Source: Affinundibacterium amnicola (lineage in GTDB: Bacteria; Pseudomonadota; Gammaproteobacteria; Burkholderiales; Burkholderiaceae_D). From it: 64,000 nucleotides of DNA. Of the stretch, positions 51,297-57,350 are shown one piece after another. The notes under the pieces were generated by a model. That model was not told where the DNA came from and did no database searches. It was given only the letters and a program-made list of their open reading frames with translations. Within the stretch, counting starts at the first letter, position 1, and each line of letters begins with the position of its first letter. The stretch lies in assembly GCF_014284275.1 (NCBI RefSeq), contig NZ_JACOFU010000006.1, forward strand, positions 186,001 to 250,000, written 5' to 3'. Both the position numbers and the translations under genes were made by a program.

Positions 51297-51321
51297 GCAT
51301 CCCACAAGACTAGTGGGATGC
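51297..51321 (+). terminator. Hairpin downstream of the aminopeptidase gene
   Basis: Arms GCATCCCAC and GTGGGATGC with a 7-nt loop, 15 bp past the stop. The T-run is poor, so termination is uncertain. The rest of the 303-bp gap 51283-51585 shows nothing recognisable and leads into A+T-richer DNA. Confidence 0.5.
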
Positions 51322-51585
51322 GATAAAACTATTAGCGTGCGTTGGTGCCGGTCTTTACGCACCTCGCGACTGACAGGGGCGTAATACAGGTCAAAATAGG
51401 TCGTGACGATGGTCTCATTTCGAGTGCTGGCTTGCAGTAGAAGGATAATCGGGATCACACGTTAGGCGCGCTGCGAACGAGCATTGTTTGTTTAATTACC
51501 AAATGAAAGAAACGTAGCATTTTTTTTCGAAATGGATAATTTTTGTTGCGCAATAAGATTGGCGAATTCAAATTAAAAATACCAT

Positions 51586-52461
51586 TTACTTGCCTTTAAT
51601 TCGCCAACGAAATCGCATTAATGGTGTGATCGAGACAGTTTTTTCTTTGCCATTTACATATGACTTAATTAAGACGTTCTCATCAAATGGCAGCTTCCCC
51701 TTACGTCCATTGTTAAATTGATACTCCAATTGTTTTCCATCTGAGTTTAGTGCCTCAATACCGTATGGACTTAAATCCCATTTGCTAGTTGATATTTTTG
51801 ACAAAGCACATCGCAAAAATCCTTTTTTGTGAGTTGTTAGAATTCCCCACCTTGGCCAAATCGATACAAGCGTTGCCATTTGTTGGCCTGCTCCGACGAC
51901 ACCAACACGACTCGCATATATGTCTTCTATCGTTCGCGCTAACGTTCTCGTAGTACAAATGCAAGTATTTCTGTCCGACTCTGGTAATGTGTCAAAAGAA
52001 GTAGATGGCCCAAAGCATATAACTTTGTAAATTGGAATATGGCCTGAATAAAGTCGTTTTACTGGTACCCACGCTGCATCATTATCTATCAAGTCTTTTT
52101 TCATCCGCTCGGCTTTTTGTTGTAACTTAACTACTGGATTTGGAATCCATTTATTTGTCCGACCAGTCTGAATACATATTTTTTCGTCGAACAAATTAAA
52201 GAATGCAAAATTGCCGCCATATCGTTTTAGCTCTACAACAATCAGCACACTGTCAGTACAGCAAATCGCGTCAAATTCGCCTACGCCAGTTGGCGCGACG
52301 CGTTCTACGATGTGAATACCGAATTTGTGCTTTTTTGCTAAATCTCCCAAAATTTTTAAACCTGAATCCTCCGTTGAGGCACCTTTCTTTTCTCTCGGTG
52401 CGTCTTCAAATTCAAGGGAGTCAATTGAGCATAAATCAACTTTATTAATGTTATTCGTCAT
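51586..52461 (-). CDS. NERD-domain (nuclease-related) protein
   Basis: 291 residues. Residues ~28-140 carry a NERD-type restriction-endonuclease-like fold with the active-site pattern Asp64 (GVGEFDAI) and Glu77-x-Lys79 (VVELKRYGG). The C-terminal ~150 residues are unassigned and include a beta-rich end. NERD domains occur in uncharacterised proteins of mobile or defence-associated regions, where DNA cleavage or binding is presumed. It begins the accessory island at its left end and has no clear operon partner. Codon choice is A+T-richer than in the surrounding genes. Confidence 0.72.
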   Translation of the reverse strand: MTNNINKVDLCSIDSLEFEDAPREKKGASTEDSGLKILGDLAKKHKFGIHIVERVAPTGVGEFDAICCTDSVLIVVELKRYGGNFAFFNLFDEKICIQTGRTNKWIPNPVVKLQQKAERMKKDLIDNDAAWVPVKRLYSGHIPIYKVICFGPSTSFDTLPESDRNTCICTTRTLARTIEDIYASRVGVVGAGQQMATLVSIWPRWGILTTHKKGFLRCALSKISTSKWDLSPYGIEALNSDGKQLEYQFNNGRKGKLPFDENVLIKSYVNGKEKTVSITPLMRFRWRIKGK

Positions 52462-52621
52462 TCCACTTCTCCAAGTTAAACTTAAGGCTTCTCACCGAAC
52501 GAGTAATAAAACAATTGGTCAGTAATTTCAATTCTACAAAAACAGGTGAATTGCTAAATTCAAAATATCAACAACACAAGGGATATCGACTTGGATATTT
52601 GTTCTATGTTGTGGACACTAT

Positions 52622-53794
52622 TTAAGAAGTTGTACATAAGATAAAGTACCAAAAATCTTCGTCTTCAGCTGCGATTACTCTTTTACTTGATTGTAGACTT
52701 GCGTAATAGTTCTTTATGCGAGGTTGTATAACCTGATTAAATTCTCGATGGTGTAAATAGAGTGTTCTCGCCTGAATGGTGAACCCATGAAGCAGGAGTG
52801 TTTTGCTCACATCATCTGAAGAAGTTGCAGTATTTTTTCTACTTTCGTATATTTTTTTTGCTTCGTTGTTGAATTTTGCAATTACCAAATCGAATGCACC
52901 GATAATGCTAGGCCAAGCTGCCGCCGTGGCTTCATAAAAACGACTGTGTTTCCAAACTGTGCTGATTTGATTTAGAAATTGTGCCACATAGTCTCTTTCA
53001 AAAGCGTGATTGATAAGAAAGGCATGTATTGAATTGTCTGGAGGCTCCTTGTCGTAGAGCTTTTCCATCCATAGCTTACCAGCCTGTTGAATGAGTATTT
53101 TTTCGATGGGGGACTGTAACTTATCAATAACGTTGTCGAACAGCTGCTCAACTACGCGACGTGGTTTGCATCTTTCTGGTGATTTTGCTCGCCTTGTTTC
53201 TATTCGTGTCAACTTGAGTTCACAGAGCAACCCAATGCGGACAACGACTAATCTATGTTTTTCATGTGCTCTGGTGCCGACTTTATATTTTGCAGACGAG
53301 ATCGCTTCTGCTTCAACGAACCATTTAAGAGCACTCATTGCGGCGTTCGGGAATTCGTAAACCATACAGCGTTCCGTTAGACGAAATCGCACGGTTGCAG
53401 GGGCAGTTCGAAATTCAATACATAATTCCGTAGCTATGGTAAGTGCTGACTCAGCAACGTGTTTGCCTGTGCTTTTAGCTTTCGCGTTCACCATCGCACT
53501 AAAAAAGATCTTATTGTATTTCAGAACTTTTTCGTAAGTCTCTGCCTCGGAAAAACCTATTGAGTCCCCATCGCTTAAGAAAATTTCAAGATAGCACAGA
53601 ACGTAGTGCTTCATAATTTCAGCATCGATGCCAGACTGCCTCGTTGCTGCGACAGCAGCTTTGACACGTTCAAAAATCTTGCGAAGCCAGAAAACATCTT
53701 CTTCGCTGAAAACCGAATATACGAGTGCTTGGTTGAAGTGCAGCCAATCGAGTATGTCTAATGCTGCTGTTAGTTGTGGTGTTGGCCTAGCCAT
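52622..53794 (-). CDS. Hypothetical protein, helical, unknown function
   Basis: 390 residues with no family I recognise. It is soluble and probably largely alpha-helical, with a basic middle region (~190-240: RRAKSPERCKPRR) that could contact nucleic acid. No signal peptide, no spans, no classical catalytic motif. A good candidate promoter lies upstream at 53843-53871, so it is transcribed separately from the YaaW-like operon. The neighbour downstream on the same strand is the NERD protein, 160 bp away. An accessory, horizontally moving gene is a reasonable inference from its lack of known relatives and its A+T content. Confidence 0.68.
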   Translation of the reverse strand: MARPTPQLTAALDILDWLHFNQALVYSVFSEEDVFWLRKIFERVKAAVAATRQSGIDAEIMKHYVLCYLEIFLSDGDSIGFSEAETYEKVLKYNKIFFSAMVNAKAKSTGKHVAESALTIATELCIEFRTAPATVRFRLTERCMVYEFPNAAMSALKWFVEAEAISSAKYKVGTRAHEKHRLVVVRIGLLCELKLTRIETRRAKSPERCKPRRVVEQLFDNVIDKLQSPIEKILIQQAGKLWMEKLYDKEPPDNSIHAFLINHAFERDYVAQFLNQISTVWKHSRFYEATAAAWPSIIGAFDLVIAKFNNEAKKIYESRKNTATSSDDVSKTLLLHGFTIQARTLYLHHREFNQVIQPRIKNYYASLQSSKRVIAAEDEDFWYFILCTTS

Positions 53795-53842
53795 TGGGGT
53801 CGTTGCACGTCTCTTAGTCTGCGTAATCTTAGTAGCCTTTTT

Positions 53843-53871
53843 ATCCTACAGAACGAATCGAATGTGCGCAA
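53843..53871 (-). promoter_or_regulatory. Candidate sigma70 promoter of the 390-residue gene
   Basis: The minus strand reads TTGCGC (-35), 17 bp, TAGGAT (-10), about 50 bp before the ATG. Spacing is ideal; both hexamers match consensus at four of six positions. Confidence 0.5.
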
Positions 53872-53956
53872 AGTTGCATATATAGGAACATGACGACGGG
53901 AAGTCTCGCAATCCTAAATAGCGTGGACTCCCTTCTTTCTTCTTGTGATTATCTCG

Positions 53957-54193
53957 CTAATTTTTCAGCCATTTATACAAACCGTAGGCTGCTGCGCCGA
54001 CAGCTACAGGGGCGGCAGCGGTTATGATCAATCCCATTCCCATTCCTCCACCAACCACCGAACCGACGGCGGCAAGACCAGATGTAATCCCTGTCGCGCC
54101 CAACCCCGGTACGCCTAAGGCGGCTACAGCACCAACAGCCCCTACTCCACCAGTTGTCGCGCCGGCACCAACTACTTTTGTCTCGTTTTCCAT
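53957..54193 (-). CDS. 78-residue glycine/alanine-rich hydrophobic protein
   Basis: Only 78 residues: a short polar N-terminus (MENETKVVG), then repeated Gly/Ala-rich segments such as GATTGGVGAVGAVAALG and GLAAVGSVVGGGMGMG, and a C-terminal hydrophobic segment ending in YGLYKWLKN. Glycine-zipper patterns of this kind favour membrane insertion and helix packing. It resembles, in style only, small pore-forming or bacteriocin-like peptides; no leader or immunity gene is visible. A clear ribosome site (AAAGGAA) precedes the ATG. It is the last gene of the minus-strand YaaW-like operon. Confidence 0.72.
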   Translation of the reverse strand: MENETKVVGAGATTGGVGAVGAVAALGVPGLGATGITSGLAAVGSVVGGGMGMGLIITAAAPVAVGAAAYGLYKWLKN

Positions 54194-54467
54194 ATATTTC
54201 CTTTTGTGTCGTGAGTTGTTAATTGCAATACGTAAGTTAATTTTGTTGCTGAAAACTCGTTGTCAAAACAATCGCTCGATTGGCAACTTGGCGATTGAGA
54301 TGTATTCTAATAAAAAAAGTAATGCTGCACACAATTAAATTTGTACGTACTTTTTGTGTACCAGTTCAAATTAGCGAGTCCATCATTTTCGCAACGTTGG
54401 TCGTAAAATGTTTTAGCGCAGGCAAACTATGCTCGCTCTTCCGAGTTCTTCGTATAACTGAACTCAT

Positions 54468-55268
54468 TTATGTCGACATCTTATTACCACATTCGGGGCA
54501 AAACTTAACCGTAGTGTCTGGCAATATCGCACCACATTCTTTGCAACTCAATGCATTTAATTTTTTTCGCAACATTGCGACATGAATTACACACGGGATG
54601 GTAACCTTGAACGCTGGACCCGCCAGATCAATTGCTGTCCAAATACCTGAGATAGCCCAACCAATTGGCCCAGTTAATACTGATGCCCATCTTGCTATTG
54701 CAGCATTAGCTCCGATGCGTAAACCATGCCCTAAAATCATACGCGCAATTTGATTCGCAATAATTAATGTAAGTTGATATGAATAAAAACCACCTGCTCT
54801 GAATATAGCAATAAACGCTGCGGTACTAATTCCACCGCTATCAAGCCCACCTTTACTTCCCATCTCTTTAAGTAATTCTCTTTTTTCACCATCACTCATG
54901 TGATCAAGAGCTTTTTTTAAAATTGTCTCTAAAATGGCGTCTTCAATCTCATCAATTGAACGGTTTTCATTAAATGGTGCTTCCAGCTTTTTCGCAACAT
55001 CACAGACTATTTCATGATATGCAGGGCCTTCTCCACGTAATACATTGACAAATGAGTTGCCGCCCATATCTCTTATTTCACGTGCAATTAGATCTGCGTA
55101 TTGAGTATGATCAGGGTAACGCATCTTATACGCATCACTACTAGTTAAATTCTCTGAAATCTTATCTTTGACATAATCTACTAGTGGCTCAAGATCGTCC
55201 TTATCTGCTACTTCTAGAACGGGGTTTAAATTTTTGTCGAAAATAGATGTATTTTTCATGTTTATCAT
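54468..55268 (-). CDS. YaaW/UPF0174-like protein with C-terminal zinc ribbon
   Basis: 266 residues (an alternative start is 9 bases inward). The middle matches the pattern of E. coli YaaW (UPF0174, distantly like ubiquinol-cytochrome c chaperone): IAREIRDMGGNSFVNVLRG, GPAYHEIVCDVAKKL, then a hydrophobic Gly/Ala region (ILGHGLRIGANAAI ... LTGPIGWAISGIWTAIDLAGPAFKVTIPCVIHVAMLRKK). Added at the C-terminus is a zinc ribbon with Cys242, 245, 257 and 260 (CKEC ... CPEC), absent from E. coli YaaW. Function unknown in the family. It follows the small basic-protein gene by 6 bp and precedes the glycine-rich gene. Confidence 0.8.
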   Translation of the reverse strand: MINMKNTSIFDKNLNPVLEVADKDDLEPLVDYVKDKISENLTSSDAYKMRYPDHTQYADLIAREIRDMGGNSFVNVLRGEGPAYHEIVCDVAKKLEAPFNENRSIDEIEDAILETILKKALDHMSDGEKRELLKEMGSKGGLDSGGISTAAFIAIFRAGGFYSYQLTLIIANQIARMILGHGLRIGANAAIARWASVLTGPIGWAISGIWTAIDLAGPAFKVTIPCVIHVAMLRKKLNALSCKECGAILPDTTVKFCPECGNKMST

Positions 55269-55274
55269 TGCTAT

Positions 55275-55541
55275 TTAAGTTAGAAATTCAGAAACTATTT
55301 TTCTGATATATTTTCTTGTTGCCAGATCATTGTCGGAAAATACTAGCTCCGAACGAGAAGCAATTTTTTCTATGATTTCAGCAGACAATTCACCACCTTT
55401 TGCTAAGCTCTGAACCGCCAAAGCAATTCTTATGCGCTCATCAAACTCGCCACTTTCTCCTCTAACTAACAGGGGAGTCATTGATTCCTGCCTGAGCTTT
55501 GCGCGCCTTTTTTTCTGTCTTTCGGCTGCTGTCATTGCCAT
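55275..55541 (-). CDS. Small basic protein, probable autoregulator of its operon
   Basis: 88 residues. The N-terminal ~20 are strongly basic (TAAERQKKRRAKLRQ), followed by an acidic-to-neutral helical region ending RKYIRKIVSEFL. I do not recognise a DNA-binding fold by name. It is first in the operon, its start has an excellent ribosome site (GGAGGT), and the promoter immediately upstream carries two palindromic sites. Being the repressor of that promoter is the natural inference, though it could equally be a bystander. The gap to the YaaW-like gene is 6 bp. Confidence 0.75.
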   Translation of the reverse strand: MAMTAAERQKKRRAKLRQESMTPLLVRGESGEFDERIRIALAVQSLAKGGELSAEIIEKIASRSELVFSDNDLATRKYIRKIVSEFLT

Positions 55542-55552
55542 ATTACCTCCGA

Positions 55553-55594
55553 AAACGTGACAGTCACGAAATAATAAGTGTGACTGTCACGTTT
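55553..55594. promoter_or_regulatory. Twin palindromic operator
   Basis: A 15-bp perfect inverted repeat (AAACGTGACAGTCAC at 55553-55567, its complement at 55580-55594) with a 12-bp spacer. Each arm is itself a near-perfect palindrome, GTGAC-N-GTCAC, so two dimer sites lie with centres 23 bp apart (about two helical turns). One site lies between the -35 and -10 elements, the other just downstream of the -10. Confidence 0.82.
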
Positions 55595-55599
55595 GTAAA
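55571..55599 (-). promoter_or_regulatory. Strong sigma70-type promoter of the small-regulator/YaaW operon
   Basis: The minus strand reads TTTACA (-35, 55594-55599), a 17-bp spacer, and TATTAT (-10, 55571-55576), about 30 bp before the ATG at 55541. Hexamers are one mismatch each from consensus. The palindromes are placed to block it. Confidence 0.8.
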
Positions 55600-55770
55600 G
55601 AAAAATTTTTCTATTTTTGAACATTTAATCCAAGAGTGATTCTTAAAAAATACAAATTACAACTCTAAACAATGGGAGATGCAGAATTAGAAAATTTGCT
55701 ATGCTAGCGCCTCGCGATTATCCGGCAGTCTTGTCTTGGATAGTCAGCACTTATTTTATGAAAGCGTATT

Positions 55771-56307
55771 ATGGCGTCATTGCAGGATCAATTTTTAAAA
55801 GCGGGCTTAGTTGATAAAAACAAAGCGAAGAAACTTCATCAAGACAAGACCCAGCAGAAAAAAATCGAGCGTCGGACTGGCAGCGAGAGCGTCGATGAGG
55901 CGCGTTTGGCGGCGCTTGAGGTGCAGCGTAAAAATGCCGAGCGCGCGCGGGAACTCAATGCGCAACGTGATGCTGCTGCCGCGCAAAAAGCAATTTTTGC
56001 ACAGATCGTGCAGATGGTGCAAACGAATCGTCAGAGCAAAGGTGTGGGTGACATCGCCTATTACTATACGCATGGCACCAAGATCGATAAGATCTATGTG
56101 TCGGCAGAGGTGCAGAAACACGTAATTGCTGGCCGATTGGTGATCGTGTGCTTGGATGGCAAGACCGAACTAATTCCTCGGGCGATCGCCGATAAAATCG
56201 CCGAGCGTGATGAATCTTTGGTGGTGCGGGTGAAGAAGACATCGAACGAAATTGATGAGGATGATCCTTACGCTGCCTTTCAGATTCCGGATGACTTTAC
56301 ATGGTAG
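55771..56307 (+). CDS. DUF2058 (YaiL-like) protein
   Basis: 178 residues, cytoplasmic. Starts MASLQDQFLKAGLVDKNKAKK, has a charged coiled-coil-like middle rich in Arg, Glu and Gln (~25-80), then the conserved C-terminal pattern VGDIAYYYTHGTKIDKIYV, LVIVCLDGKTELIPR and DDPYAAFQIPDDFTW. This is the DUF2058/YaiL family, often annotated nucleoprotein/polynucleotide-associated; the function is not known with certainty. The Ala at position 2 and the position behind an extended -10-like TGCTATGCT upstream are consistent with a real, separately expressed gene. It marks the right border of the accessory island. Confidence 0.88.
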   Translation: MASLQDQFLKAGLVDKNKAKKLHQDKTQQKKIERRTGSESVDEARLAALEVQRKNAERARELNAQRDAAAAQKAIFAQIVQMVQTNRQSKGVGDIAYYYTHGTKIDKIYVSAEVQKHVIAGRLVIVCLDGKTELIPRAIADKIAERDESLVVRVKKTSNEIDEDDPYAAFQIPDDFTW

Positions 56308-56564
56308 TGATTTGAGAGTTCAACAAGGTGCAATTTTTTTCGTAAGGTGTATTGCGCGGTATGACGCCTAATCAAGGGGAAAGTGATTTTCTTTACTTTG
56401 TTTAATCACGACGTAAATTGCTGTGCTGTTGAGTACATGACCGTCGGACGGTGTAATACGCCTGTGGCACGCCTGTGGCTATTACAGCCTACTTATTGCA
56501 TAACCATCCCTTAGAGGCTTGTGATGCAGGTACTTAAATAGGCTGACAAATACCGGTTGGAAAA

Positions 56565-57350
56565 CTACATCTGTTTAAAATGATGTAAATAACTACGGCT
56601 CACCGGTAATTTATCAGCACGGCCTTTCATAAATACGCTGGCAGTTTCGTTTTCTCCGCGCGTCACATGACTCACCATATTGATATTCACGACCACCGAG
56701 CGATGCACTTGAATGAAGTGCGTGCCGTCGAGTTGATCTAGTAATTCTTTCAGAGAACTCCGAATTAAAGCTTCAGCGGGTTTGCCATCTTCGCCACGCC
56801 AAGCAATTAAGGTGTACTTTTCGTTCGAACGTAAAAAATCGATATCAGCGACGGGAATCATGCGTAAAGACTGACCGACCATGGCTTTAATCCAACGCAA
56901 GTGTTCAGGTGCCGCTTTCTTTTGCATTCGCGCTTCTAACTTATCCAACAACATTTCGATGTCTGGCGCTTCTTGTGATGTACCAAGACGTTCTCGTACG
57001 CGGGCAACTGTGTCAGCAAGGCGGCTTGGATCCACAGGTTTCACCAGATAATCTAAGGCACCTTGGGTGAAGGCTTCCACGGCATATTCACTATACGCCG
57101 TGACAAAAACTAAATGTACACCACGCCCCATTTGACGTGCCGCTTCTATACCCGTCATGCCTGGCATATGTACGTCGAGAAAACACACGGTTGGTTTAAG
57201 CGCTTGGTATTGTTCGACCGCTTCGCGTCCATTGCGCGCTTCTGCGACGATTTCTAATTCGGGCCAAGTTTGCGCCAACATACGGGTTAATGCGTTACGT
57301 AAGAGAGGTTCGTCATCGGCGATCAGTGCGGTAGGGTGAGTTGCGGTCAT
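56565..57350 (-). CDS. LytTR-type response regulator (AlgR/LytT-like)
   Basis: 261 residues. The receiver domain has phospho-acceptor Asp59 in CFLDVHMPGMTG with acidic residues DDE 12-14. The output is a LytTR DNA-binding domain (~155-260: LRSNEKYTLIAW ... FIQVHRSVVVNINMVSHV), which binds direct repeats. The kinase gene is 9 bp upstream, so they form an operon. Target genes are not visible. Relatives control autolysis, exopolysaccharide, virulence or quorum functions, which cannot be chosen between here. Confidence 0.92.
   Translation of the reverse strand: MTATHPTALIADDEPLLRNALTRMLAQTWPELEIVAEARNGREAVEQYQALKPTVCFLDVHMPGMTGIEAARQMGRGVHLVFVTAYSEYAVEAFTQGALDYLVKPVDPSRLADTVARVRERLGTSQEAPDIEMLLDKLEARMQKKAAPEHLRWIKAMVGQSLRMIPVADIDFLRSNEKYTLIAWRGEDGKPAEALIRSSLKELLDQLDGTHFIQVHRSVVVNINMVSHVTRGENETASVFMKGRADKLPVSRSYLHHFKQM

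Follow-up and report, generated by a model that had tools for sequence, protein, structure and literature searches.

How bacterial anti-phage systems are held in restraint is little understood. In the accessible sections of two papers, Juk (jumbo phage killer) is described as JukA with JukB or other effectors (PMC13282480, PMC12931631). According to the same portion of the first, the infection vesicle, a phage-made membrane vesicle, is where JukA detects early phage proteins; the partners of JukA are diverse effectors that include transcriptional regulators, and JukA sometimes protects alone (PMC13282480). The jukAB locus of PA14 is called constitutive in the available text of a further paper (PMC12571901). 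Regulators of defence operons are treated in the accessible part of a fourth, where BrxR/CapW and CapR appear as WYL and HTH regulators and RptR as a 79-aa autorepressor of a type I restriction-modification island; RptR is an experimentally tested precedent for a small autorepressor of this design (PMC12255303).

The locus examined here lies in a stretch of 64,000 nucleotides from Affinundibacterium amnicola (hereafter the window). Its YaaW-like protein belongs to the JukA family, with homology spanning nearly the whole PDLC04111 model (Table 1), and judged by this homology it is JukA, the sensor of the known Juk defence against jumbo phages. Because JukA is already described, the statement in an earlier note on this DNA that its author knew of no described system with this composition finds no support. 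The same note had placed a YaaW-like gene with a zinc ribbon 6 bp behind the first gene, which we confirmed: the first ATG of jukA follows p88 by 6 bp, and the Pfam model Zn_ribbon_3 matched JukA with four Cys at E 1.1e-5 and 25.1 bits, just below its cutoff of 27. The E. coli YaaW/MsyB equivalog NF007593 scored 83.2 bits, under its curated cutoff of 395. The distribution of JukA was patchy, at 4 of 98 relatives and 3 of 369 genomes of the class, the genome itself included in both counts.

jukA was found within a 4.4-kb insertion that also holds a NERD gene, a 390-aa gene, a 78-aa gene and p88. G008, a genome from the genus of the host, has the pepP-like gene directly beside the DUF2058 gene, and this identifies window positions 51304-55677 as an insertion; the corresponding stretches of seven other relatives contain no pepP-like gene and hence have no bearing on it. 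The NERD-domain gene and the 390-aa gene, the latter of no known family, occupy 51586-53794 within the insertion and are perhaps further defence genes.

Table 1. Features of the p88-jukA locus, in window coordinates.
Feature	Position	Strand	Basis
Insertion between pepP-like and DUF2058 genes	51304..55677	.	absent from L189 (G008); ~1 kb other DNA in L188 (G024)
78-aa glycine-zipper-like hydrophobic protein, Gly/Ala-rich	53957..54193	-	ORF; unit membership doubtful
JukA homologue, 266 aa (YaaW-like)	54468..55268	-	PADLOC PDLC04111 E 9.5e-73; PF03981 29.4 bits, cutoff 21.5
Cys4 zinc ribbon, JukA C terminus	54486..54545	-	Pfam and alignment with relatives
p88, 88-aa putative autorepressor	55275..55541	-	ORF; homologues in three relatives; no Pfam, NCBIfam or PADLOC match
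Basic arm of p88 (TAAERQKKRRAKLR)	55491..55532	-	invariant residues in p88 alignment; arm comparisons
Proximal operator (putative) CGTGACNGTCACG	55556..55568	.	12/12 specified bases invariant in 4 loci
-10 box TATTAT	55571..55576	-	motif match
Distal palindrome GTGACTGTCAC inside promoter spacer	55580..55590	.	distal copy also in L126, none in L127 or L128
-35 box TTTACA	55594..55599	-	motif match; 17-bp-spaced -35/-10 pairs also in L126, L127, L128

The sequence in front of jukA agreed with the earlier reading. The promoter described there as near-consensus, TTTACA/TATTAT on the - strand, matched the consensus at 10 of 12 positions with a spacing of 17; both GTGACNGTCAC palindromes were found, one in the spacer and the other just past the -10, with centres 23 bp apart; and the 88-residue ORF was recovered with its strong ribosome site, GGAGG ahead of the p88 ATG. 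The proximal palindrome, GTGACAGTCAC at 55557-55567, lies just 3' of the -10. Promoter matches of this kind are common (3 in 53000-57000 compared to 7.8 expected in shuffles), and what lends this promoter weight is only its recurrence in the loci of relatives. The two GTGACNGTCAC palindromes are the only ones in the whole window, where 0.03 were expected, and at least two appeared in none of 100 shuffles. The host genome (4.58 Mb) contains seven in all, compared to three for the reversed control word, and the remaining five all lie inside open frames, one of which is 158 codons long. The proximal site CGTGACNGTCACG is expected to cover the transcription start. An RNA hairpin formed by the two palindromes was considered and dropped, because transcription should, on this expectation, begin within the proximal site.

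Scanning genome contigs with a JukA alignment yielded 34 loci. In the closest three, from Thalassotalea (L126), Vibrio (L127) and Colwellia (L128), JukA was 71, 71 and 68% identical to that of the window and carried the same ribbon. Directly upstream of each jukA lies a p88 homologue (53, 52 and 55% identical, respectively), separated from it by 2, -4 and 3 nt. The p88-jukA pair is thus a conserved one, and the adjacency across genomes that the earlier note had proposed as a check is kept for these two genes in three further genera, with its third gene missing there. All four promoters, that of the window included, have a 17-bp spacing and a -10 that ends 29-33 nt before the ATG, and CGTGACNGTCACG stands beside the -10 in every one, its 12 bases all invariant within flanks that are 35% identical, so the operator sequence is conserved as well. 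An integrase lies downstream in L126, and L127 contains a ChlI-domain fragment, which is probably comM.

The palindrome was confined to these three among 35 loci compared. All 4 loci with p88 had the palindrome, which was present in none of 34 JukA loci without p88 (250,494 bases; Fisher p 1.4e-5, a value that treats loci as independent and ignores kinship). The 34-locus set omits L153, L156 and L158, which were covered by the 35-locus comparison and carried no palindrome; in L156 no jukA frame was found. In the JukA tree, built without L153, L156, L158 and L004 and with L157 in place of its duplicate L003, the kindred of JukA that is accompanied by p88 was modestly supported (fork 85/91).

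p88 itself gave no family match in Pfam, NCBIfam or PADLOC and matched neither HTH nor WYL models. For a ribbon-helix-helix domain, the window's p88 was without a Pfam match and the structure models were too weak to use, both AF2 models being of low confidence (pLDDT 62.5 and 64.2). Foldseek with the p88 model found nothing (best E 3.2). Among PDB sequences, the p88 profile had four matches, with the RptR entry 9R2Z not among them, although the set may not include 9R2Z. These searches detected no known DNA-binding domain or fold in p88. Away from JukA, no p88 was found in the plasmids, phages and viral contigs searched. The 294 family genomes gave the genome itself and four weak matches (E 0.004-0.008, 26-37% identity), which sit within frames of 328-667 aa and are taken as chance; beyond the known copy, there was none in 296 genomes around Vibrio or in 295 around Thalassotalea. 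No regulator like p88 was found named in the openly accessible part of the Juk literature, to which the original Juk paper does not belong, and p88 may be listed in subscription papers such as that one. Among the matches listed in a literature search with the palindrome strings, the papers were unrelated by title. The lack of a known DNA-binding fold would fit a reading in which another host factor binds the palindromes and p88 has a different role. The palindrome, however, tracks p88 through hosts of different families, and we regard such a factor as quite improbable.

We believe that the locus is probably an anti-phage unit of Juk type, gained by horizontal transfer and repressing itself via p88. 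In this model p88 would be made first from the promoter and, probably as a dimer, would bind CGTGACNGTCACG over the transcription start; in the window it would also occupy the second copy of the palindrome between the -35 and the -10. Bound p88 would block RNA polymerase, so that its own synthesis and that of JukA stay low. JukA with its added zinc ribbon would be, by homology, the sensor of the early phage infection structure. We infer autorepression by p88 from the pairing of gene and operator, the position of the operator and its conservation; relief of the repression and activity of the unit in defence likewise belong to what we infer. The proposal of the earlier note that the first protein represses a defence operon is supported to this extent, by a palindrome that tracks p88, and finds no support for the third gene as a member. 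Several points count against the model. p88 has no detectable DNA-binding domain and its structure models are weak, L127 and L128 carry one site, not two, there are just four p88 loci, whose form of JukA may be one kindred, and the PA14 jukAB locus is described as constitutive.

A zinc ribbon was present in 7 of the 38 JukA compared, and all seven are directly preceded by a regulator-type gene, p88 in four and an HTH gene in three; the three HTH genes overlap or abut the ribbon-bearing jukA from upstream. This arrangement would also suit p88 as a DNA-binding effector of JukA, which phage sensing releases or delivers, perhaps via the ribbon, the promoter sites then reflecting its specificity; as far as the available text goes, transcriptional regulators are indeed counted among JukA-associated effectors (PMC13282480). 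We consider this role unlikely, as the promoter at which the operator stands and is invariant is that of the operon itself, and some JukA that lack a ribbon (L147, L131, L011 and L009) likewise follow HTH or WYL genes. Other genes were seen in the same place. GTPase-like genes stand ahead of jukA in L144, L148, L151, L152 and L154 (assigned by eye, one confirmed in Pfam), and in Megasphaera (L131, 1638-3923) a 762-aa fusion of an HTH and a dynamin-type GTPase does so.

The third gene that the earlier note had included in a tight operon, encoding the 78-aa protein, begins 274 bp downstream of the jukA stop. No counterpart was found in the loci of the three relatives, and the protein was unmatched in Pfam, NCBIfam and PADLOC. 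It was at first considered to be JukB; this was rejected, as the JukB model PDLC04114 (323 positions) had no match anywhere in the host genome at E 10. The gap, the absence from three relatives and the unmatched JukB model together make the three-gene operon doubtful. A true three-gene Juk-like operon with the 78-aa protein as a new pore-type effector would be consistent with the common strand and order, and with the resemblance of the protein (52% identity over 71 residues) to part of a 155-aa, weakly BnzA-matching protein near jukA of L145. We hold it to be improbable in view of the 274-bp gap, the missing counterparts and a relative of the 78-aa protein that stands without jukA in the 3.2-kb locus L164. 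That relative, of 113 aa and also of glycine-zipper type (L164, 1492-1833), comes from the same bacterial family and is encoded close to a sensor-regulator pair. In L145 (3959-6601, Pseudomonas faucium), jukA is convergent with a two-gene set that matches the Bunzi defence (BnzB at E 1.8e-51 and, weakly, BnzA at 4.5e-8), and the stretch that resembles the 78-aa protein lies in the weakly BnzA-like protein.

A motif like the basic arm of p88 and the GTGAC words were also found together in phages. Viral contigs were scanned for paired palindromes, which yielded 103 stretches (L023-L125). The pairs were considered as operators of p88 relatives, a reading that was rejected. They looked at first like coding repeats, and inspection of the encoded proteins then brought out the link between arm and word. 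An arm-like motif, ER[QK][RK][RK]xR and variants, occurred at most 300 nt from the pair in 43 of the 103 stretches and twice elsewhere in the same DNA (0.686 compared to 0.002 per kb, counted only in open stretches of at least 100 codons). About 30 of the 43 belong to a single, closely similar group. In such genes the palindrome follows the motif by 25-138 nt in 91 of 97 cases and precedes it by 218-275 nt in the other six. Val-Thr-Val-Thr is the reading of 75 palindromes, and 22, spread over seven loci, fall in another frame; since they are read in two frames, it seems to be the DNA, not the protein alone, that is conserved. Seven such proteins, taken from the two viral sets, were scanned; six match a PHROG named replication initiation or replisome organiser, and that of L046 matches none. 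The lambda O gene contains an origin of replication. GTGAC/GTCAC words with the basic motif inside phage replication-type genes are candidate in-gene origins.

The association was then approached from the protein side. In a first reverse test with the motif ERQ..RRAK, the exact palindrome was found in 1 of 12 loci (L065, already in the DNA-fetched set), and half-sites were denser near the motif in some loci, near-duplicates included, a weak result. The second fetched 62 stretches by the protein motif AERKRxQR alone (L210-L269), and 52 of 62 motif places were kept; it includes near-duplicates, and two of the 62 (L089 and L122) were already in the DNA-fetched set. Within 300 nt downstream, GTCACG was the most enriched hexamer (25-fold, 87 places in 28 of 52 loci), with TGTCAC, GTGACA and CGTGAC enriched 21-, 15- and 10-fold and seven control words at 0.6 to 2.1. 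The purine-rich TAGAGA (24.2-fold) and AGAGAA (18.2-fold) came close to GTCACG. The full palindrome occurred five times, in three loci, compared to twice elsewhere. Where the motif was internal, 29 of 38 proteins had at least three half-sites downstream; where it lay close to the N terminus, 5 of 24 did. Only one of these 24 (L253) had a palindrome upstream, so a site cannot be predicted from the arm alone.

In L253, the palindrome adjoins a TATAAT ahead of a small protein (303-608) encoded beside a Zot-like gene. This protein matches phrog_6334 (E 3.3e-17), a family that in turn gave weak matches to three of the four p88 (best E 0.0015), the signal lying solely in the arm. Similar small arm-bearing proteins stand behind paired GTGACNGTCAC palindromes in L053 (5479-5796), L056 (5636-5947) and L061 (13-279, an arrangement that holds only if the contig is circular), all three from the 103 DNA-fetched loci. 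What these small phage proteins with a promoter palindrome share with p88 is its basic arm, AER[QK]. Full-length kinship of p88 with phrog_6334 was rejected, since control arm-bearing small proteins scored as well as the hhalign probability of 61% over 58 columns, and the regions after the arm gave 0.46%. The link between arm and word is a promising correlation with many near-duplicates, and it suggests a shared DNA-reading module. Tentatively, (A)AER[QK][RK][RK]xR could be a portable module that reads GTGAC half-sites in three settings, namely in-gene initiator sites, the own promoters of small phage proteins and the switch of the Juk operon, through which a phage regulator could act at sites of the defence operon and the defence regulator at those of phages. 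If the link of arm and GTGACNGTCAC is causal, it would mark candidate origins of replication within many phage genes, and possible cross-talk between phages and the defence operon would follow.

The locus thus represents a known defence protein in a new, probably self-repressed variant, a form of Juk with an exactly defined conserved operator and with a small putative regulator for which no relatives are known. Because both accompany jukA, control of JukA becomes directly testable. Compared to described Juk systems, the window shares a JukA homologue over almost the entire model and differs in having no JukB match, a zinc ribbon on JukA, and an unclassified p88 with a conserved operator in first place. 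Unlike PA14 jukAB, as characterised in the available text, this variant would not be constitutive if it represses itself. With BrxR/CapW and CapR, as covered in the accessible part of PMC12255303, it has in common a regulator gene ahead of defence genes, whereas p88 matches neither HTH nor WYL models. The small phage proteins of the phrog_6334 (L253) type share the basic arm and a GTGAC palindrome at the promoter, but outside the arm their kinship with p88 is undetectable. With RptR, as far as the same portion of PMC12255303 describes it, the p88 unit shares a small first-gene regulator and palindromic sites that overlap the promoter of a defence operon; the RptR site is TAGCTA, whereas that of the p88 unit is GTGACNGTCAC.
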